Assembly: GCA_009903775.1 (NCBI GenBank)
Contig: WYEM01000111.1
Span: forward strand, 1 to 36,814
Direction of reading: 5' to 3'
Source of the DNA: Nitrososphaerota archaeon
Lineage (GTDB): Archaea; Thermoproteota; Nitrososphaeria; Conexivisphaerales; Conexivisphaeraceae
Length of the DNA: 36,814 bases
Below are positions 3,130-35,991 of this stretch, one piece after another. The translations under genes and the position numbers were made by a program. Positions within the stretch are counted from its first letter, which is position 1, and every line of letters begins with the position of its first letter. The notes below the pieces were generated by a model. It did no database searches and was not told the DNA's origin. It saw nothing but the letters and a program-made list of their open reading frames with translations.

Positions 3130-5598
3130 CTAGCCCGACGGATCCCCCGGATGAGGAGGACGAACCCGGTCCGAGGCCGCGCGCCGGCGCAGGGCGGCCG
3201 CCGCCAGGGCGGCGATGGCCGCCGAGGCGGCGACCGCGCCGATGAGCGGGTAGTCGTAGGAGGCCGTCACGCGGACGGGCCCGCCGATCACCGCGTAGCC
3301 CGCGGAGTCGACCACCCGAACCGAGAGCGAGTGGGATCCCGGGGGCAGCCGGCACGTGCAGGAGGGGGACGCGGTTACGGCCACCGGGTCCCCGTCCACG
3401 TACCATGTGTAGGTGTAGGGGGGAGTGCCGCCGCTCACGGACGCCGACATGCGGGCGACGTCGTCCTCGTAGAGGGCGCTGCTGGAGGAGAGCGAGATGG
3501 AGACCGACACTGTGGGGTCCGGGTTGACAGTCACATTGATGATGGGCGATTTCACGGTGTAGCCGGCGGAGTCCGTGACCACCACGTAAGCCGAGTAGGC
3601 CCCGGGGGAGCCGGGGGAGAACGCGCAGGACGGCGACGCGCAGACCAGCCGGCCGTCCACGTACCACGCGTAGGAGTATGGGAGAGTACCGCCCTCCACC
3701 GAGGAGGAGAGGGCGACGCCCAGGCCCACGTCGGTGGCGGAGGCGTTGGCGGAGGCGGATACCGTGGGGTCAGGGTTGACCACCACCTCGACTGACGCGT
3801 TCACCGTGTAGCCGGCGGAGTCCGTGATCGAGACCGACACCGCGTGGGGGCCCGGGGTCCCCGGATCGTATGAGTATGAGCTGGACCCCCGGTACACCCG
3901 CACGCCGTCCACGTACCATGTGTAGGTGTAGGGGGGAGTGCCGCCGCTCGCGGACGCCGACAGCGCCACGGGGATCCCGACGTCGGTGACGTTCCTGGCC
4001 GCCCTGAGGGACGCCGAGGGGGCGGGGTTGACCCTGATCCAGCACCGCGCGGACCACGCGGAGCTGCCCACCGCGTCCACGACCTCGACCTGGAGCGAGT
4101 GCTGCCCCGCCGGGAGCGGCGGCAGGTCGAAGGAGGCGCTGAGCAGCTGGCTGTAGGTCGTCAGGTTGTATGCCGGCGCCCCGTCCACGAGGACGTAGTA
4201 TGTGTAGGGGGCCACCCCGTTCGACACCGAGGAGGAGATGCTCACCGGGATCCCGAGCCCGGCGTCGGTCGCCGCGGGAGCTGAGAGGGAGATGGAGGCG
4301 CTGAACGCGGGGACCGAGGAGGAGTAGCCGACCGGGCCGAAGTTCCCGCTCCCGATGGTCACGACCGGGTACCCATTCACGAGCGATGTGCTCAGGTCGT
4401 CCGCGGCCTCCGCGGTGTCGCTCCCGAACCCGTAGATGGCGGGCGGCCACACGATGGACCCGTTCGGGAGCGCGTACCTGAGGATCAGGGTGGCGTTCAT
4501 GGAGGTGAAGTGCGTCGCCTCGCCGTTGCCCTCCCCGCCGAACACGAGCTCCGCGTCGTAGAAGTGGCCGCTGGGCGTGTAGCTGTACCCGTCCACGACC
4601 AGCCCCACCGACGTTATCCCGGGCTCGCGTATGGTGGCGTTGTCGTACCACGCCACGCCCGCGGAGCCGCCGATGCCGTAGCCGAACCCGACGTCGACGC
4701 CGTCCGCCGTGCGCGCGTAAGCTATCGCGAGGTGGAGGGTGAGGGGGAGGGCGTACGGCCGGGGGGCCGTCCCGTACCCGTAGAAGTAGCCCGAACTCGT
4801 CGCGTGGACGGCGCCGCTGCCGGCGACGCTGGCGTTCGTCAGGTACGACGCGGGGGACGTCATGTTCCAGATGTTGTCGTTGAGGAACATGGTGTCGTTG
4901 TTCGTCAGGAAGCACGCCACGTCCTGGAGCCAGTAAACGTAATCTCCATGGGTCGTGTTCACCTGCAAGACGGCGTTCAGCTGGAGGCTGGCGCCGTAGG
5001 GGCTGACCCCGGGCGGGGGGCTCGAGTTGTACGCGCCGATCGAGTATATCACGGCGGTCCCCAGCGCCTCGCCGTAGACGATCTCGTAGGGGTGGAGCGC
5101 CCCGGAGGCGTTAAGCACCCCGTAGTCCGCGACGCCGATGGGCGCTGGGAGGGACGAGTGATAATAGTAGACGTTCACCGGGACCGTCGAGACAGTGTAG
5201 TTCACGAAGGCGGTTCCCGACGATAGGTCGTTGCAGATCACCAGGTAGTAGGTGCCGCCGGCCAGCGGCCCGACGCTCGAGCTCACGTAGGTGCCCGAGG
5301 AGTGGTATACGTACTGGGCCGACCCCGTGGCCTCAAGGCCCGAGAGCTGGGAGGGCGTCATCAGGTACACGTCGACGGGGACTGTGGAGCTCACCCGGAA
5401 AGTGACGCTCATCCCGGTCAGCGCCTGGACCGGCTGCCAGGCGTATTGGTGGGGGGACAGCGAGATGGACCCCGACGGATCCGGGGACCCGCGGGCCGGC
5501 GCCGCCGGGAGCGCGTGCGCACTGGGGGCGGCGCCCGCCTGTAGGAGCAGCGCTAGCGCCAGGAGCGCGGGGAGCGCCGCGAGGAGATGACCCCTCAC
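3130..5598 (-). CDS. Thermopsin-like (peptidase family A5) surface protease with Ig/PKD-like repeats
   Basis: Secreted or cell-surface acid protease candidate, 822 aa from GTG 5598. Order: signal peptide (VRGHLLAALPALLALALLL, about 1-30); thermopsin-type domain about 50-420, recognised by PIGVADYGV, the block VSPYGASLQLNAVLQVN, YWLQDVACFLTNND, NIWNMTSP and many Gly/Tyr/Asn-rich strands; four Ig/PKD-like repeats about 430-780, three containing GTPPYTYTWYVDG or close variants and each starting with an A-T-D-x-G-like strand; then one membrane helix (YPLIGAVAASAAIAALAAAAL) and a basic tail. N-x-S/T sequons are abundant, as in glycosylated archaeal surface proteins. Thermopsins act at low pH and high temperature, so this supports an acidophile. 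GTG 5598 is preferred over GTG 5619 because TATA-like CTTATA (5628-5623) lies about 27 bp upstream. The catalytic residues were not assigned. Confidence 0.75.
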   Translation of the reverse strand: MRGHLLAALPALLALALLLQAGAAPSAHALPAAPARGSPDPSGSISLSPHQYAWQPVQALTGMSVTFRVSSTVPVDVYLMTPSQLSGLEATGSAQYVYHSSGTYVSSSVGPLAGGTYYLVICNDLSSGTAFVNYTVSTVPVNVYYYHSSLPAPIGVADYGVLNASGALHPYEIVYGEALGTAVIYSIGAYNSSPPPGVSPYGASLQLNAVLQVNTTHGDYVYWLQDVACFLTNNDTMFLNDNIWNMTSPASYLTNASVAGSGAVHATSSGYFYGYGTAPRPYALPLTLHLAIAYARTADGVDVGFGYGIGGSAGVAWYDNATIREPGITSVGLVVDGYSYTPSGHFYDAELVFGGEGNGEATHFTSMNATLILRYALPNGSIVWPPAIYGFGSDTAEAADDLSTSLVNGYPVVTIGSGNFGPVGYSSSVPAFSASISLSAPAATDAGLGIPVSISSSVSNGVAPYTYYVLVDGAPAYNLTTYSQLLSASFDLPPLPAGQHSLQVEVVDAVGSSAWSARCWIRVNPAPSASLRAARNVTDVGIPVALSASASGGTPPYTYTWYVDGVRVYRGSSSYSYDPGTPGPHAVSVSITDSAGYTVNASVEVVVNPDPTVSASANASATDVGLGVALSSSVEGGTLPYSYAWYVDGRLVCASPSCAFSPGSPGAYSAYVVVTDSAGYTVKSPIINVTVNPDPTVSVSISLSSSSALYEDDVARMSASVSGGTPPYTYTWYVDGDPVAVTASPSCTCRLPPGSHSLSVRVVDSAGYAVIGGPVRVTASYDYPLIGAVAASAAIAALAAAALRRRAASDRVRPPHPGDPSG
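3392..3962 (-). repeat. Near-identical 58-bp direct repeats inside the Ig-like region of the thermopsin-like gene
   Basis: Positions 3392-3449 and 3905-3962 are identical over 58 bp except one base (A at 3437 versus G at 3950). They are 513 bp (171 codons) apart, in frame, and encode the SGGTPPYTYTWYVDG core of repeats 4 and 2. The equivalent stretch of the intervening repeat (about 3649-3706) is clearly diverged. Confidence 0.85.
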
Positions 5599-29407: not shown

Positions 29408-30013
29408 TCACGGCGCATGCGCAAGATGCGCTCCAACCGTCGGCGCGATCAGAACCAGATTTACGATCAGCGATAGTATTGCCAGGACGCCGAAGATGAG
29501 CGCCGCCCACGCCACCCATTTGGCGCGTTGACCGGGCATCCTGTAATCGTCGATGGCGATCCCCAGGGGCAGCGATAGGAAGCCCGTCAGGCCGTAGAGC
29601 GCGAAGAGCGCGAACATCGCGGCCGGCTCCTGCGTCATGCCGAGCGAGTATCCAACGGAGCCGTAGTAGATCGTGAGGAGCCCCAGGATGGCCGTGAGGA
29701 CGCCGGCGTAGAGGAACCTCTGGCCGGAGCGCAGCGTGAGCCACCAGGCGAGCACCGACACGCCCAGGAACACCAGCGGATCGTAGAATAGGATGTTGTA
29801 GCTCCCGGGCAGCGGCCACGTGAACTCGTCCTTGAGCGCCACTATCAGGAGCACGAGCCCGGGGGCGAGCGCCGCGTTGAGGAAGCTGGACAGCTCGAAG
29901 TCGATCGGGCGCCCCTTCCTCATGGAGTTCCACGCGGCGAAGCCGAAGACGGCGCTGGCCAGACCCAGGGCCGACAGGACCGCTTCGTCCATCAGGAGAT
30001 CGTCCACGAACAT
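29408..30013 (-). CDS. DUF981-type membrane protein
   Basis: 201 aa with about six hydrophobic helices: ALGLASAVFGFAAW, NAALAPGLVLLIVAL, ILFYDPLVFLGVSVLAWWL, FLYAGVLTAILGLLTIYYG, MFALFALYGLTGFLSLPLG and VAWAALIFGVLAILSLIVNLVLI. The layout and the F-x-x-W-N-x-x-R-K-G segment after helix 1 fit the archaeal DUF981 family (COG3374 type), common in acidophiles, function unknown. ATG 30013 is preceded by a Shine-Dalgarno-like GAGGGG (30021-30016) and TATA-like AATAAAAATAG (30052-30042). Divergent from the DsrE operon. Confidence 0.75.
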   Translation of the reverse strand: MFVDDLLMDEAVLSALGLASAVFGFAAWNSMRKGRPIDFELSSFLNAALAPGLVLLIVALKDEFTWPLPGSYNILFYDPLVFLGVSVLAWWLTLRSGQRFLYAGVLTAILGLLTIYYGSVGYSLGMTQEPAAMFALFALYGLTGFLSLPLGIAIDDYRMPGQRAKWVAWAALIFGVLAILSLIVNLVLIAPTVGAHLAHAP

Positions 30014-30136: not shown

Positions 30137-30541
30137 ATGAGCAAGTTCTCCATGATTGTGTTCTCGGGTACCGAGGACAAGATGATACCGGTCGGCGTGC
30201 TGTCCCAGGCGGCCGCGGCGATGGGCTATGAGGTGAGGGTCTTCGTGACCGGGTGGGCGCTGCTCAGGTTTCTCAGGAACCCGCCCCCGCCCACGTGGCC
30301 GAAGGAATTCGAGCACTACGTTCCGAGGTTGGCGAAGGGCATGGAGGCGGCGAAGGCCCCCACGTGGGCCGACATGCTGAGGCAGGCCAGGTCGATGGGC
30401 GCCAAGGTCTACGCCTGCAGCATGATGTCGCAGGCCATGGGGCTGAGCAAGGAGGACTACGATCCCTCGTTAGTTGACGACGTCGTCGGGGCGGCGACCT
30501 TCCTGCAGGAGTCCGAGGGCGGGCAAGTGATCTTCATCTAA
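30137..30541 (+). CDS. DsrE/DsrF-like sulfur-relay family protein
   Basis: 134 aa. MSKFSMIVFSGTEDKMIPVG, then AAAAMGYEVRVFVTGWAL, a long loop, and MGAKVYACSMMSQAMGLSKE with candidate sulfur-carrying C94, the pattern of DsrE2/peroxiredoxin-like DsrE proteins. These proteins carry persulfide between TusA and oxidising or reducing enzymes. First gene of a three-gene unit with an SQR-like flavoprotein (20-bp gap) and DUF1641 protein. Leaderless geometry with the TATA at 30106. Whether it delivers sulfur to or accepts it from the flavoprotein is not evident. Confidence 0.85.
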   Translation: MSKFSMIVFSGTEDKMIPVGVLSQAAAAMGYEVRVFVTGWALLRFLRNPPPPTWPKEFEHYVPRLAKGMEAAKAPTWADMLRQARSMGAKVYACSMMSQAMGLSKEDYDPSLVDDVVGAATFLQESEGGQVIFI

Positions 30542-30561
30542 CAGTCGCGGGAGCGATCGGG

Positions 30562-31755
30562 ATGCCCCAGGCGCGTCGCGTTGTGATAGTGGGGGGCGGC
30601 GCGGGGGGCCTGATAGCCGCCAACATGCTGGCCCGCGAGAGGGACGTCAAGGTCACGCTGCTGAACGATACCCCCTATCACTACTACCTGCCCCAGCTGC
30701 TTCAGATAGCGTTCAGGGGTGACGACTCCCAGCTGAGGAGGCCCCTCGATTCCCTGGTCAGGAGCGGCGTGGAGCTGTTGCTGGAGCGCGCGGCTCGCGT
30801 GAACCTGGCCGAGAGGAGCGTGGAGACGGAATCCGGCAGATCGATCCCCTATGATTACCTGATACTCGCGCCCGGCTTGACGGTGGACCATTCCGCCATA
30901 CGCGGGAACGAGCCCCTCGCCTCCAAATTCGGGGACTTCCACTCCACCCCGGAGAACGCCTGGAGGGTCCACTCCGCTATCAGCGGCATTAATAAGGGCC
31001 GCGTAGTGGTCGCGGTGGCCGATCCGAAGCACAGGTGCCCGCCGTCCCCCTACGAGGCCGTGCTGCTGGCCGACGAGGCCCTGAGGGCCAGGGGGGTTCG
31101 GCAGGATGTCTCGATAACCCTGGCCGTCCCGTATCCGAGGGCCTATCCATCCGAGAGCTTCAACGAGGTCATCGAGCCCGTGCTCAGGGAGAGGGGCATA
31201 GCGATCGAGACGTTCTTCACCGTGGACAGCGTGGACGTCGAGGGCGGGAGGATGACGTCCCTCGAGGGCGGGGAGCTGCAGTTCGACGTCGGCATAGTGG
31301 TGCCAATGCATAAGGGGCCCAGGTTGAGCGTGCTGCCCGAGGGCACCCTAGACGAGGATGGGTTCGTGAAGGCCGACAGGCTGACCAACGCGGTGAACGG
31401 CTACGACGACGCGTTCGCAATAGGTGACGCGTCGACCTCGGCCAACGCCAGGACGGGCGTCACCGCCCACCTGCAGGCGGAGGTCGTGGTCAAGAGGCTC
31501 AGGGGGGAACATTCTGTGAACACCGGGAGGACCAACTGCCCCACGGAGCTGGGCTTCGGCATGGGGACCTTCGTGATAAGCGACTACCAGCATCCCGCAG
31601 TGAGGTTGCCGCCTATGCGCGTTTTCTTCCTCATGAAGCGGATGTTCGCGGATATGTACTGGGATATGCTGAAGTATCCGGAGTTCTGGAACCCGATCTT
31701 CGAATCCTATCTGGAGGCCACGGAGCCCGGGAGGCTCAGCAAGATTTTCGGGTGA
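30562..31755 (+). CDS. Sulfide:quinone oxidoreductase-like flavoprotein (copy 1)
   Basis: 397 aa. FAD-binding VVIVGGGAGGLIAANML (8-24), YDYLILAPGL, second FAD motif AFAIGDASTSAN, and a C-terminal membrane-associating stretch (FFLMKRMFADMYWDM). Two cysteines match the SQR redox pair: C159 in KHRCPPSPYEA and C326 in TNCPTELG. SQRs oxidise sulfide and pass electrons to quinone; related proteins with the same fold may handle other persulfides, so activity is inferred. The short C-terminus and absence of a third Cys place it among the archaeal SQR-like subtypes. Followed 10 bp later by DUF1641. Confidence 0.85.
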   Translation: MPQARRVVIVGGGAGGLIAANMLARERDVKVTLLNDTPYHYYLPQLLQIAFRGDDSQLRRPLDSLVRSGVELLLERAARVNLAERSVETESGRSIPYDYLILAPGLTVDHSAIRGNEPLASKFGDFHSTPENAWRVHSAISGINKGRVVVAVADPKHRCPPSPYEAVLLADEALRARGVRQDVSITLAVPYPRAYPSESFNEVIEPVLRERGIAIETFFTVDSVDVEGGRMTSLEGGELQFDVGIVVPMHKGPRLSVLPEGTLDEDGFVKADRLTNAVNGYDDAFAIGDASTSANARTGVTAHLQAEVVVKRLRGEHSVNTGRTNCPTELGFGMGTFVISDYQHPAVRLPPMRVFFLMKRMFADMYWDMLKYPEFWNPIFESYLEATEPGRLSKIFG

Positions 31756-31765
31756 GGTGAAGGAT

Positions 31766-32167
31766 ATGTCATCCTCCGAGCTGAACTCCGAATCCCTGGA
31801 GCGCCTCCTGAGCCTGCTGAACTCCCTCGGCGCTGTGCTGAATGATCAGGAGTTCCTGAAGCGCGCCTCGGAGCTTCTCCTGGAGCCGGAGACGTTCATC
31901 GTCATCGAGAGGCTACCCCGGCTCATAGCCCTCCTCGAGAGGCTTAGCCGTCCGGAGATCCTGGACCTCCTCGAGCGCCTAGTGGAATCCCTGGAGTCGG
32001 CGGCATCGGCACCGCCTCCCTCCCTCTCCCGCTTACTGGCGAGCTTGAGCGACCCGGGCGTCAGAAGGTGGCTCGGCGCACTCCTGGGGGCGTTGAGCTC
32101 CCGGGGAGTGGATGAGCGCGCGAAGGGCCGATGCGCGACTCCCGCTCGTGCAGGTGATCATATCTAA
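31766..32167 (+). CDS. DUF1641 protein (copy a)
   Basis: 133 aa, nearly all helical and leucine-rich (LERLLSLLNSLGAVLN, LIALLERLSRPEILDLLERL, LLASLSDPGVRRWLGALLG), as in DUF1641 proteins encoded next to SQR-like or formate-dehydrogenase-like enzymes. ATG 31766 has a good Shine-Dalgarno, AGGTGA at 31756-31761, and its upstream GTG 31757 would destroy that site. It probably assists the SQR-like partner, perhaps in membrane or complex assembly; no function is established. Confidence 0.75.
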   Translation: MSSSELNSESLERLLSLLNSLGAVLNDQEFLKRASELLLEPETFIVIERLPRLIALLERLSRPEILDLLERLVESLESAASAPPPSLSRLLASLSDPGVRRWLGALLGALSSRGVDERAKGRCATPARAGDHI

Positions 32168-32178
32168 CTGGGGTTCCG

Positions 32179-32214
32179 GTTGGGGCGGGGGCTTACCTCG
32201 CGCCCCGCCCCAAC
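32179..32214. terminator. Strong GC hairpin between convergent DUF1641 operons
   Basis: GTTGGGGCGGGG (32179-32190) and its exact complement (32203-32214) form a 12-bp stem with a 12-nt loop, 12 bp downstream of the DUF1641a stop. The symmetry could act on both converging transcripts or protect 3' ends; no T-run follows, so it is not a classic intrinsic terminator. Confidence 0.55.
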
Positions 32215-32396
32215 GAGGGCCCGCGCTGGCACGCGGATGTATATGTTAAAACGCTGCGGGGATCGGGGCGGGAACGGCCCCGAGCTCGCCCTCCACCAGC
32301 CCTCGGCGGGCGAGGTAATCCATCCATGGATATGCCGGGTGCGGTTGAAATGACTGTGATCTCGTTTATTTCCCAGGGCGGTTCCTGGAGCGCTTC
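32215..32396. other. Intergenic spacer between the convergent sulfur operons
   Basis: No credible gene is present. It contains a TATA-like ATGTATATGTTAAAAC (32233-32248) without a suitable start codon downstream on either strand and a short palindrome ATCCATGGAT within 32322-32336. Confidence 0.4.
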
Positions 32397-32840
32397 CTAC
32401 TTCCCAGACCTCAGCGCCCTCGCGCAGGCGCCGAACTCCTTGGCCAGATCGAGCAGCAGCCCCAGACCCTGCGCCACGTCCGGATCGCTCAGCCGACGGC
32501 TGAGCGACAGCAGTCCCATCTTCCTGGGCTTTGAGACGTCGATCTTGCCCAAAGAGTCCGCGAGGCATGACGCCACGTCGCTGAGCGCGTTCTGCGCGTT
32601 GGAGAACCTGTCCCCGTCGACGCGCTCCAGTCCCCTCGCAAGGGCCCCCAGGAGCCCGACCATCCTCATTATGGCGGGATCCGTTGCGGCCGCCAGGAAC
32701 GCCTCGTCCGCATTATCGGCGAGGCGCTCGAGGAGCCCCAGGAGCCCGCTCCTCTTGAGCTGGGCCAGCGCGTTCAGGAGGCCCACCAGCGCCTGAACCT
32801 GATCGTCGGTCAGCTCGGGTTGCGCTCCGGCACCGCTCAT
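32397..32840 (-). CDS. DUF1641 protein (copy b)
   Basis: 147 aa: TDDQVQALVGLLNALAQLKR, LLGLLERLADNADEAFLAAA, MRMVGLLGALARGLERVDGD and LSRRLSDPDVAQGLGLLLDLAKEFG. It shares the Leu-rich helical plan and the L-S-D-P-(D/G)-V motif with copy a but is clearly diverged. ATG 32840 overlaps the SQR-like copy 2 stop (ATGA), indicating translational coupling. Its downstream end faces the hairpin at 32179-32214. Confidence 0.78.
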   Translation of the reverse strand: MSGAGAQPELTDDQVQALVGLLNALAQLKRSGLLGLLERLADNADEAFLAAATDPAIMRMVGLLGALARGLERVDGDRFSNAQNALSDVASCLADSLGKIDVSKPRKMGLLSLSRRLSDPDVAQGLGLLLDLAKEFGACARALRSGK

Positions 32841-34027
32841 TCGGCACCACCCCTCAGGCCGTCCAGCCAGCCATGGTAGAACGCCTGCTTCAGGAGGCGC
32901 ATGGGAGCGAAGGCGCCCAGGAAATAGCACTTGAGCATGTACATGCCCATCTTCGGATCGTAGGGCATCTCGCACAGCCCTCCCCAGCCCCTGGTGCCCG
33001 CGTAAGCCACGCAGGAGACCGGGCTGGGCATGAACGCCGGGCCGAAGCCGCCGGCAGCGTCACCCAGCAGATTCGTCACGGACGTGGTCGCCAGCGACTC
33101 CACGAAGACCCCGGCGAGGCCTATCCCCAGGGGCGGCAGCGAGTGCTCCCCGGCGAAGTACACGTCGTCGAACTTGGGATGCCTCCCCGTGGGCAGGACG
33201 GGCGTCCACCTCGGGTCCGGCTTGAACACGAAGTCCTCGTTCTGGGCCAGCGGCTTGGGGAGCCCGGGCGGCGGGACCTTGATCAGCAGATCGTACTTGT
33301 ACTCCCAGCTCTCCGTGAGCACCTTCTTGTTGCCCGGCTCCACGCGCACCAGCTTGCTCTTGGGGACGTACTCGATCCCCCTGGCCGCCATCTCCTCCTC
33401 CAGGAACCTCGAGATCGCGCTCCCCAGTCCCATGCCGTTGCTCATTATCACCGGCCTGACGTGCGGGTCCAGGAGCCTGATGCTGACCGAGCGGCCCCTG
33501 GCTTTGTAGAAGTCAGCCAGCACCGTGACGAGCTCGTACGGGTACACGCCGCACCTGTAGAGCTCATCCGGCACAAGCACCGTTATGTTCTGGCCATCCC
33601 TCACGGACTTCAGCGCCTCCCTCATCTTCAACGCGTCCTCGAGCGTGTAGTTGTGGTAGCCCTCCCCGCTCAGGTCGGGATAGGCGTCCCATTTCATCTC
33701 GCTCCCGAGCGCCACTATCAGGTAATCATATTGATACTTGGCCTTGGCGCCGGTGACCGCGCGGTTGCCCGCATCTATCGCCTGGACCTCGTCCTGCACG
33801 ACCTTGATGCCCAGCTTCTCCATGTTCTTGACAGGCGCCCATGTCTCGTCGGGGGACGCGTAGCCCAGCGCGACGTCGAAGAAGAGCGGGGGCATGTAGT
33901 GCCTCTCCTCGCGCTCCACCAGGGTCACGTCCAGGTCGACGCCTAACTCCTTAGCCCCCCGCACCAGCTTCTTCGCCGAGGAATATCCACCGACCCCTCC
34001 TCCCAGGATCAGGACCTTCTTTCCCAT
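32837..34027 (-). CDS. Sulfide:quinone oxidoreductase-like flavoprotein (copy 2)
   Basis: 396 aa. FAD motif VLILGGGVGGYSSAKKL (5-21), YDYLIVALGSEMKW, DDVYFAGEHSLPPLGIG as the second FAD motif, and a C-terminal amphipathic region (MYMLKCYFLGAFAPMRLL). C159 in YRCGVYPYE corresponds to C159 of copy 1, and C339 in SCVAYAGTRGWGG occupies the position of the second redox Cys; C352 and C367 are extra. It is closer to classic SQR than copy 1 in these features. It lies between tusA (18 bp upstream) and DUF1641b, in the same orientation, so is probably regulated with tusA. Confidence 0.87.
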   Translation of the reverse strand: MGKKVLILGGGVGGYSSAKKLVRGAKELGVDLDVTLVEREERHYMPPLFFDVALGYASPDETWAPVKNMEKLGIKVVQDEVQAIDAGNRAVTGAKAKYQYDYLIVALGSEMKWDAYPDLSGEGYHNYTLEDALKMREALKSVRDGQNITVLVPDELYRCGVYPYELVTVLADFYKARGRSVSIRLLDPHVRPVIMSNGMGLGSAISRFLEEEMAARGIEYVPKSKLVRVEPGNKKVLTESWEYKYDLLIKVPPPGLPKPLAQNEDFVFKPDPRWTPVLPTGRHPKFDDVYFAGEHSLPPLGIGLAGVFVESLATTSVTNLLGDAAGGFGPAFMPSPVSCVAYAGTRGWGGLCEMPYDPKMGMYMLKCYFLGAFAPMRLLKQAFYHGWLDGLRGGAE

Positions 34028-34044
34028 GAGCTGCGCCAGCCCCC

Positions 34045-34287
34045 CTACTTCTTGGCCGTAATCTTTATCACGGCCACGATCTTATCCGGGTCATTCCTCA
34101 TCTCGAGCAGCTGGTTCCCGGTCCGCTTTATCCAAGCCTCGACGTCGGGCTTGAAGCCCTGATCTGTCGCCCAGACCTCTATAAGGTCACCGTTGGCGGC
34201 GTTCCTGTAGGCCTTCACTATCTCGGTTATGGGACCTGGACAGGCAAGTCCTCTAGCATCCACGACGATTTTTCTACCATCACTCAT
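34045..34287 (-). CDS. tusA: TusA-family sulfurtransferase
   Basis: 80 aa. IVVDARGLACPGPITEIVKAY holds the CPxP-type motif with C16, whose thiol carries a persulfide; the rest (GDLIEVWATDQGFKPDVEAW) is the usual TusA two-layer fold. In archaeal and bacterial sulfur oxidisers TusA passes sulfane sulfur together with DsrE. TATA-like GGTTTTAAAAAGG (34321-34309) is about 27 bp before ATG 34287 (GTG 34290 is the alternative), and two copies of a 17-bp operator-like motif lie directly upstream. First gene of tusA - sqr-like 2 - DUF1641b. Confidence 0.93.
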   Translation of the reverse strand: MSDGRKIVVDARGLACPGPITEIVKAYRNAANGDLIEVWATDQGFKPDVEAWIKRTGNQLLEMRNDPDKIVAVIKITAKK

Positions 34288-34308
34288 CACTGCCGGTTTC
34301 AGATCCCC

Positions 34309-34321
34309 TTTTTAAAACCTT
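34309..34321 (-). promoter_or_regulatory. TATA box of the tusA operon
   Basis: GGTTTTAAAAAGG on the minus strand, centred about 28 bp from the tusA ATG. Confidence 0.6.
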
Positions 34322-34325
34322 ACCA

Positions 34326-34342
34326 TAGCCATATTTGTTAGC
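34326..34342. promoter_or_regulatory. Operator-like motif, copy A (tusA-proximal)
   Basis: TAGCCATATTTGTTAGC. It shares CCATATTTGT with copies B and C, with weaker flanks. It lies immediately upstream of the tusA TATA box. Confidence 0.55.
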
Positions 34343-34355
34343 AAAAATCTTATAA

Positions 34356-34372
34356 TGACCATATTTGTCAAC
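34356..34372. promoter_or_regulatory. Operator-like motif, copy B
   Basis: TGACCATATTTGTCAAC, with dyad TGAC-N7-GTCA. Its centre is 30 bp (about three helical turns) from copy A. Confidence 0.6.
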
Positions 34373-34726
34373 ACGTCTGATCCCCGGCCCTTAACTGTAG
34401 ATCCAAAATTCATCCCAGCGATCCCGGCTGGAAACGCGTTCGGCGAGGGCGGTTCCCCGTCCAAGCGACCCGTACCTTGTCTCCGCGTCCATCTGGAGGG
34501 CAAATTGGGGACGTGGGGCGTGCCGGCCCAGGCGCCCAGGGACTACGTGGAGGACCGAGGGCTCGGCGTGAAAGTGACTCATATTTAAGGAGATGATTTT
34601 GGGTCTACGGTGAAGGGTGAGGGTTCCGCTGGGGTCTCGGGCGTTACCCGCCTTTTGCACGAACCACTGAACGCTCCATGATGCTCGATTTGAAATCCTT
34701 CGCTTCAGCCCACGCGGTGGGGCCAC

Positions 34727-34758
34727 CCCGCCCCTTCCAGGGGCGGGATTTTTGCCGT
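34727..34758 (+). repeat. Hairpin element copy 3
   Basis: CCCGCCCC (34727-34734) pairs with GGGGCGGG (34740-34747) across a 5-nt loop and is followed by ATTTTTGCCGT. It has the same stem and (T)TTGCCGT box order as copies 1 and 2; the terminal TATCA is absent. Confidence 0.6.
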
Positions 34759-34900
34759 CGCCTCCAGCCGCGCGCCAGCGCCGGTCCTCGGTTGGTTTGA
34801 GCATGGCATGGGGGCTGGCCTACCTCATCGTCTGAACATATCGGCCGCATTTTGAGAAATCGCGAAGGTCGCCTCGCCCTCGTCGGGTCGATCTGCACGC

Positions 34901-34975
34901 GAGCTCGATGAAATGCGGCCTGACAAAGCCTCATCCGACCAGCATCCTATCCGAAGGCCGCACTTCATCGAGCTC
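34901..34975. repeat. 21-bp inverted repeat with 33-bp spacer
   Basis: 34901-34921 (GAGCTCGATGAAATGCGGCCT) is, apart from one base, the reverse complement of 34955-34975. No open frame spans it convincingly. It could be an RNA hairpin, a binding site or the ends of a tiny deleted element. Confidence 0.7.
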
Positions 34976-34979
34976 ACCC

Positions 34980-35133
34980 CTACCCGAGCGAGAGGATCGG
35001 GTGCAGCCCGTTCAGCCACCGCGGCATCCCCTCCCTCCACTCGAGCGGGAGCCTCCCCAGGCCCCCGTCCTCGAGCACGAAGTCCCGCGTGGACGTGAAC
35101 GCGGAGATCCAGTTGCGCGTGAGCTCGAAGGCA
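34980..35133 (-). pseudogene. Possible C-terminal gene fragment
   Basis: A minus-strand frame reads AFELTRNWISAFTSTRDFVL, then LPLEWREGMPRWLNGLHPIL and a stop. Its composition is protein-like, whereas upstream in frame it becomes Gly/Pro/Ser-rich with no proper start. A related stretch (GDAGRLNGPRP, 18375-18420 minus) lies in another intergenic gap. Family not recognised. Confidence 0.35.
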
Positions 35134-35280
35134 CGCCCGGACCTAGCCTGCGCTCGCCGGCCGGGAAGGGATCCTCCTGATCCGGTGCCGATCAGCGATA
35201 CGGCAGATCCGGGCGGAGGGTTCCCCGGATCCGGGATCATCGATCGGCCTGGCGGAACGAGCCAATTCAAACACCAATAA

Positions 35281-35288
35281 CCTTAAAT
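35281..35288 (+). promoter_or_regulatory. TATA box of the RHH regulator gene
   Basis: CCTTAAAT, centred about 29 bp before ATG 35314; a leaderless transcript is likely. Confidence 0.55.
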
Positions 35289-35296
35289 GAAATAGT

Positions 35297-35314
35297 GTGT
35301 ACAAATATGGTCAA
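35297..35314. promoter_or_regulatory. Operator-like motif, copy C, between TATA box and start of the RHH gene
   Basis: The plus strand reads GTGTACAAATATGGTCAA, i.e. TTGACCATATTTGTACAC on the minus strand. This matches copy B over TGACCATATTTGT. The position over the transcription start is classic for autorepression. Confidence 0.6.
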
Positions 35315-35991
35315 TGGCTAGGACCAACCTTGCAGTCGACAGGGACGTTGCCGAGCGCCTGTCAGAGGAAGCGAGGGCACAGGGCAAGACGCTTTACGCG
35401 CTGACGAACGAGATTTTGAGGGCATGCATTGATATTTACAGGGACGGCGGGGATGCGCGCCAAGCAGCGGCGCTCTGGCGCGCATCCAACATAATGAGGG
35501 ATTTGGACCTCGTGCCTGTTCCGCTCGGCATACTGGAGTGGTTGATAGATAGCCTGGGCGAGAGCAGCATGAACGGGCTGCTGGAGGCCATGGAGAAGCA
35601 AGGATCCATTCTCGGCAAATATCTATCCATACTTTACCCACAGTTCACCTCCCTCTTCGAGGAAACCCCGGAAGTCCTGGCTAGGCTTCTCCCGGCCAAG
35701 AAGGTAGAGATCGTCTCCAATGAACCCGGGGGAGGCCTCCGTGTTAGGTTGGTCGGCATCGGGAATTCGGAGAGGGCCGCGCGTGCCCTCGGCAGGCTCC
35801 TGGAGGAGGCTGTACGCAGCTATGGGGCGCTAAAGCTTGTGGAGTTCAAATACGCAGTGGGAGTGCTGGAGCTCGTGCTGGCGCCGATCGATGAGGGCAA
35901 CGCTCAACCGAGCCGTCGAACCGGCGCGAACCGTTCCGCCAGCTTCGATCCCCATGGGCCGCAGCGCCGGGCTGAGCGCCTCCGGCCATGA
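35314..35991 (+). CDS. Ribbon-helix-helix transcriptional regulator
   Basis: 225 aa. Residues 1-45, MARTNLAVDRDVAERLSEEA followed by RAQGKTLYALTNEILRACI, form a ribbon-helix-helix: a short beta strand and two helices with the conserved G-K-T-x-x-x-x-x-N turn. Residues about 50-190 form an alpha/beta domain (PLGILEWLIDSLGESSMNGL, VEIVSNEPGGGLRVRLVGIG, LVEFKYAVGVLELVLAPI) that may sense a ligand; I do not recognise it. The last 35 residues are low complexity. An operator-like motif overlaps its transcription start and two more precede tusA, so autoregulation and control of the tusA operon are inferred. It is transcribed away from tusA across the 0.9 kb gap. Confidence 0.75.
   Translation: MARTNLAVDRDVAERLSEEARAQGKTLYALTNEILRACIDIYRDGGDARQAAALWRASNIMRDLDLVPVPLGILEWLIDSLGESSMNGLLEAMEKQGSILGKYLSILYPQFTSLFEETPEVLARLLPAKKVEIVSNEPGGGLRVRLVGIGNSERAARALGRLLEEAVRSYGALKLVEFKYAVGVLELVLAPIDEGNAQPSRRTGANRSASFDPHGPQRRAERLRP

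Follow-up and report, generated by a model that had tools for sequence, protein, structure and literature searches.

Outside the Thermococcales, the sensing and regulation of sulfide oxidation and of TusA/DsrE sulfur transfer in archaea are poorly understood. In proteins of the ribbon-helix-helix (RHH; MetJ/Arc/CopG) superfamily, the N-terminal segment of about 45 residues consists of a beta strand and two subsequent helices, and short dyad operators are bound by dimers or tetramers. In regulators of the NikR/CopG type, this N-terminal RHH part binds DNA at short pseudo-dyad operators, and autoregulation occurs. SurR, from the Thermococcales, binds DNA through another fold and is controlled by a redox-thiol switch, while the protein considered here has a single cysteine. 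SurR does resemble the system proposed below in being an archaeal, sulfur-linked dual activator/repressor (cited in PMC6737238; PMC12162507).

For two regulators from Pyrococcus furiosus, TrmBL1 and CopR, the same operator leads to different outcomes depending on its position: repression from downstream of the TATA box or at the own gene, and activation from upstream of the BRE (PMC4706686, PMC7830388). TrmBL1 represses from sites located downstream of the TATA box; when templates with sites upstream of the promoter were tested in vitro, two of three showed activation (PMC4706686). In genes activated by CopR, the motifs directly adjoin the BRE on its upstream side, and the CopR gene itself is repressed by its product (PMC7830388). 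For TK0271, sites upstream of BRE/TATA mediate activation (PMC6737238). The locus described here shows a comparable arrangement, but TrmBL1 and CopR belong to the TrmB and Lrp families and have many targets genome-wide, whereas here the protein is RHH-like and apparently has one local target. Local regulators of sulfur-transfer and sulfur oxidation clusters, as proposed here, are known from Hyphomicrobium (sHdrR and SoxR; PMC12423496, PMC10451225). These are ArsR-type repressors, of which sHdrR uses two conserved cysteines (PMC12423496), in contrast to the RHH-like start and the one cysteine of our protein.

Genes of the locus and a shared promoter element

The window, which is the complete stretch of 36,814 bp that was analysed, carries a cluster of genes for sulfide oxidation and sulfur transfer. 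On the minus strand, the gene for the sulfur carrier protein TusA (34045..34287; Pfam TusA, E=3.7e-19) is the first gene of the operon which is presumed to be controlled. It is followed by sqr2 (32837..34027), coding for an FAD-dependent sulfide:quinone-reductase/FCSD-like flavoprotein with Pfam domains Pyr_redox_2 and FCSD_central, and by DUF1641b as the last gene (32397..32861; Pfam DUF1641, E=1.1e-9). A convergent arm on the plus strand consists of dsrE, sqr1, and DUF1641a (30137..32167). The regulator gene (35314..35991, plus strand) codes for 225 aa with an RHH-like N-terminus (residues 1-45) and a C-terminal domain (about 66-192). Between tusA and the regulator gene is a gap of ~1 kb without a convincing gene; it contains a near-perfect inverted repeat (GAGCTCGATGAA...TTCATCGAGCTC, 34899-34977) that is single-copy in the genome. 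Rfam matches in this intergenic region were all sub-threshold and affected one hairpin.

The promoter regions on both sides of the gap have a short element in common. Its core, ACAAATATGGTCA, occurs upstream of tusA as site B (34356-34368, minus strand, -81 to -69 from the tusA ATG) and upstream of the regulator gene as site C (35301-35313, plus strand, -13 to -1 of the start codon; element 35299..35313), with identity at 13/13 bp. Site A, ACAAATATGGCTA (34326-34338, minus strand, -51 to -39 from the tusA ATG; element 34326..34340), is a weaker copy which matches at 11/13 bp. The initial annotation had described a shared sequence of 17 bp. This is present at the places reported, but only 13 bp are exact, and the "17" corresponds to the 17 of 19 positions at which the extended B and C sequences agree (GTGTkkACAAATATGGTCA). 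Its description of a weaker copy 30 bp from B was precise, the spacing of A and B being exactly 30 bp, and the dyad TGAC-N7-GTCA which it attributed to copy B is indeed found there (34356-34370, 15 bp); it is clear in this copy alone, with part of it retained in C and A.

When a 14-mer was searched with up to three mismatches, the window had three matches compared to 0.21 expected, and three were reached in 0/100 shuffles. When the two upstream regions, 113 bp each, were shuffled with their dinucleotides preserved, a common word of at least 13 bp arose in 9 of 20,000 trials. For a third copy (at least 11/13) in shuffled tusA upstream DNA, P=0.006. The window has perhaps a hundred promoter pairs, in view of which the 13-mer by itself would be statistically only borderline; the case for the motif is made by the third copy, by the neighbouring regulator gene, and by uniqueness in the genome. 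The latter was assessed by a pattern search with mismatches in the draft genome (1.45 Mb, about 80% complete), as had been suggested along with the initial annotation. Exact copies of the core were detected at B and C only and copies with one mismatch were not found. With two mismatches, site A and two further places match, of which one is inside a coding ORF and one in a GC-rich gap without an evident promoter. The motif is thus present at the promoter of the regulator gene and at that of its presumed neighbouring target, with little elsewhere in the draft genome, as would be expected for a local autoregulated regulator. This supports its assignment as a shared, locus-specific, operator-like element.

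The regulator protein and its family

The N-terminus of the protein is RHH-like, in accordance with its initial annotation as an RHH regulator. It is, however, not a short protein of the CopG type but a two-domain protein of ~190 residues from an unnamed family. The Pfam RHH_1 match (residues 3-26) has 13.9 bits, which is below the cut-off of 20.5. The full-length monomer model shows RHH-type helices at residues 10-22 and 27-44 and a separate C-terminal domain; residues 1-5 have low confidence in this model, the RHH strand requiring a dimer. R3, at the putative DNA-contact strand, is invariant in the 18 homologues of the family alignment. Neither the regulator nor the scanned relatives are covered by a family in Pfam or NCBIfam. 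Like the NikR/CopG-type regulators, the protein combines an RHH-like N-terminus with a candidate pseudo-dyad operator of 13-15 bp, here at three sites. It differs from them in its C-terminal domain, which is not ACT-like and for which a fold resembling H-NOX, TRAPP, and BcsD is predicted. This prediction is based on a model of the domain alone, computed with 27 sequences (pLDDT 86), for which Foldseek returned BcsD, H-NOX, and TRAPP Bet3 proteins with a TM-score of about 0.45-0.57. The probabilities of these matches are mostly >0.9, but E-values are no better than 1.6e-3 and some designed proteins also rank high. A sequence-based profile search of solved structures returned no meaningful match.

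Several more specific assignments were considered and rejected. A heme-binding H-NOX can be dismissed because the proximal histidine that ligates the heme has no counterpart, residues 66-192 of the window protein being free of histidine, so that the similarity is confined to the fold (TM-score about 0.5). The V4R domain (PF02830), which is marked by a Cys cluster, had no match in 11 family members, and the C-terminal domain of the window protein is free of cysteine. The only cysteine of the protein is C38, so an intramolecular disulfide switch, as in the two-cysteine thiol sulfur switch of the sHdrR/SurR type, is not possible.

About 190 residues are conserved throughout the family. Some genomes of the same order encode several paralogues, and among 398 further genomes sampled from the phylum, two others matched at E 1e-20 or better; in the draft genome itself, the window regulator is the only family gene found. 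Family members flank DsrE-TusA-Hdr clusters in six genomes from three related genera (DsrE-TusA-FlpD-HdrA-HdrA-HdrC in G010, G013, G014, G015, G016, and G018). The regulator gene is convergent with a DsrE-TusA-FlpD-HdrA-HdrA-HTH-HdrC cluster in G010 and G013. It comes first in G018, directly before DsrE-TusA and the remaining cluster, and is beside the HdrC end in G014, G015, and G016, of which only G015 shows the DsrE-TusA end as the contigs of G014 and G016 stop at the Hdr end. In the phylogenetic tree, the window protein is sister to the members from G010 and G013 (support 0.886), and those from G014-G016 and G018 constitute another branch. Without any recourse to the motif, synteny thus connects two branches of the family with sulfur transfer, which supports a link between this regulator family and sulfur transfer.

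A gene for a DUF981 membrane protein adjoins dsrE in the window (29408-30013), and such a gene also adjoins family members in G008, G005, and G006 (L031 7451-8167; L036 9842-10573; L042 6909-7385). It may be part of the same regulon.

Relatives of the sulfide cluster and of the element

The closest relatives found for the DsrE, SQR1, SQR2, TusA, and DUF1641 proteins are from a distant family (f19), where their genes form one cluster. Sequence identity is up to 75% for DsrE, 55-62% for SQR2, and up to 69% for TusA. The gene set DsrE/TusA/SQR1/SQR2/DUF1641a/b (30137-34290 in the window; L100-L104 in f19) is common to both, with variation in gene order and orientation: tusA is located between dsrE and sqr1 in L103 and L104 and heads the sqr2 operon in the window. 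The complete genome G002, which is from the same genus as the window, lacks SQR2 as well as the regulator. Contamination of the contig is unlikely, because a housekeeping gene on the same contig (25380-26726) is 83% identical to that of G002. On the simplest reading, the sulfide cluster is accessory, was probably transferred, and came under the control of a regulator from a family that is common in this order. In one f19 locus, an AAA_assoc_C protein (L100 7818-8264) flanks the sulfide cluster in place of the RHH-like regulator and is possibly a different regulator in that genome.

The initial annotation had also proposed to look for conservation of the motif in front of tusA orthologues with a linked regulator gene. 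Such a relative did not turn up, as none of those examined combines a tusA-sqr2 operon with the regulator, and no copy of the motif was seen elsewhere. The f19 genomes with the sulfide cluster have no member of the regulator family, and a motif scan of these clusters revealed no close copy beside the operon starts. The regulator and DsrE promoters of G010, G013, and G015 have no significant 15-mer in common (P 0.05, 0.49, and 0.53), and at 19 homologous regulator loci, a comparison of the regulator promoters with those of their neighbours gave no comparable common word. Two candidates from this comparison were discarded, a long common word in L041 being a repeat near two contig ends and that in L031 simply reflecting a shared divergent promoter region. 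The hexamer TGTACA occurs within site C. Within the 40 bp before the starts of family members, it is shared by the window and the Hdr-linked genera g7 and g8, thus by three clades (1/500 shuffles reached three), but was chosen post hoc. In G010, ATGTACACGTGCAT is found just upstream of a TATA-like stretch in the DsrE promoter (L029 about 4015-4074), and the regulator promoter contains ATGTACAT. TGTACA could possibly be a half-site of the family and is a post hoc lead.

Promoter geometry and mode of regulation

The TATA box of tusA, assigned on the basis of its position, is TTTTAAAA (34310..34317, minus strand), located at -30 to -23 from the ATG at 34287. The regulator gene has TTAAAT (35283..35288, plus strand) at -31 to -26 from its ATG at 35314, and dsrE, starting at 30137, has TTAAAT at -30. 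As these TATA-to-ATG distances are the usual archaeal distances between the TATA box and the transcription start site, we infer that all three genes have leaderless transcripts. Leaderless starts are likewise suggested for the regulator genes of the relatives, since TATA-type 6-mers are the commonest words within 40 bp before the starts of family members and alone stand out in a de novo analysis of 6-mers. Site C is located between the TATA box and the ATG of the regulator gene and would cover the transcription start, as initially annotated. Sites A and B are upstream of the BRE/TATA region of tusA, with A just upstream of it and ending 8 bp from the TATA box. The dsrE promoter was correctly described as devoid of the motif; no 15-mer in it comes closer than 11/15 (P=0.75).

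The reading that we favour, with a probability of about 0.5, is that the motif serves the adjacent regulator as its operator, with autorepression via C, activation of tusA-sqr2-DUF1641b via A and B, and a sulfur-linked signal. The regulator would bind site C at its own transcription start, resulting in self-repression. It would also occupy A and B, which directly adjoin the core promoter of tusA on its upstream side, and from there would most likely help to recruit basal factors and so activate the operon. The activity of the regulator would be altered by a ligand or by a redox signal, linked to sulfur metabolism and perceived by the C-terminal domain. The dsrE arm would be outside its control. 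Self-repression with tusA activation appears likelier than double repression because C is downstream and A/B are upstream of the TATA box, to which the archaeal position rule applies. The initially proposed self-repressing regulator of the tusA-sqr2-DUF1641b operon is thus retained in part, as the placement of C fits autorepression but that of A and B favours activation.

The main rival, which is close to the model of the initial annotation, assumes the same regulator and the same sites but pure repression of the regulator gene and the tusA operon. The protein would bind cooperatively to A and B and thereby intrude on the BRE, and both genes would be released by the signal. Most known RHH proteins are repressors, and the footprint of a dimer at site A could extend to the BRE. 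In addition, the stretch from B to A contains a weak TATA-like TTATAAGA; if this is used as a second promoter, A would be downstream of it and hence in a repressor position. Two sites at a distance of 30 bp could also allow cooperativity. The helical phasing to which the initial annotation alluded is, however, not independently proven by this spacing: the right flank of the 30-bp unit is also duplicated (TAAGrTTTT, 9/12; left flank 4/10), so the even spacing looks like an imperfect tandem duplication. As A and B are wholly upstream of the best-placed TATA box, which is the activation position for TrmBL1, CopR, and TK0271, we regard pure repression as rather unlikely.

It is still less probable that the sites belong to a different regulator, which would bind there to control tusA and the RHH-like gene alike, and that the RHH-like protein acts elsewhere. 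In favour of this, the relatives of the protein do not show the motif at their own promoters, but the confinement of the motif to this locus, beside a regulator gene, is as expected of a local regulator, and the RHH-like gene is the sole family gene found in the draft genome. That the motif is a non-functional by-product of chance and of a local duplication of promoter DNA, which is AT-rich in both upstream regions within a window of 68% GC and has alike right flanks at A and B, is very improbable, given that the A/B core was kept at 11/13 while the left flank decayed, that B and C share little outside the core beyond the left GTGT, and that the 13-mer match reaches the 5e-4 level before the third copy is counted.

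Beyond this locus, we tentatively suggest, as a possibility rather than an expectation, that the protein represents an unnamed family of archaeal one-component regulators, in which an RHH-like part is fused to an H-NOX/TRAPP-like ligand-binding domain. Such regulators would sense a signal from sulfur metabolism without a cysteine pair and would control DsrE/TusA genes by position-dependent activation and self-repression; in the organism described here, the regulator would be wired to a sulfide-oxidation cluster that has its closest relatives in another family. For the sulfide genes of this uncultured archaeon, the analysis offers a concrete regulator family and a precise candidate operator of 13-15 bp, and predicts that activation at one promoter and repression at the other would be seen in vitro. 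It also points to a candidate ligand-binding domain that lacks the usual cysteine switch.
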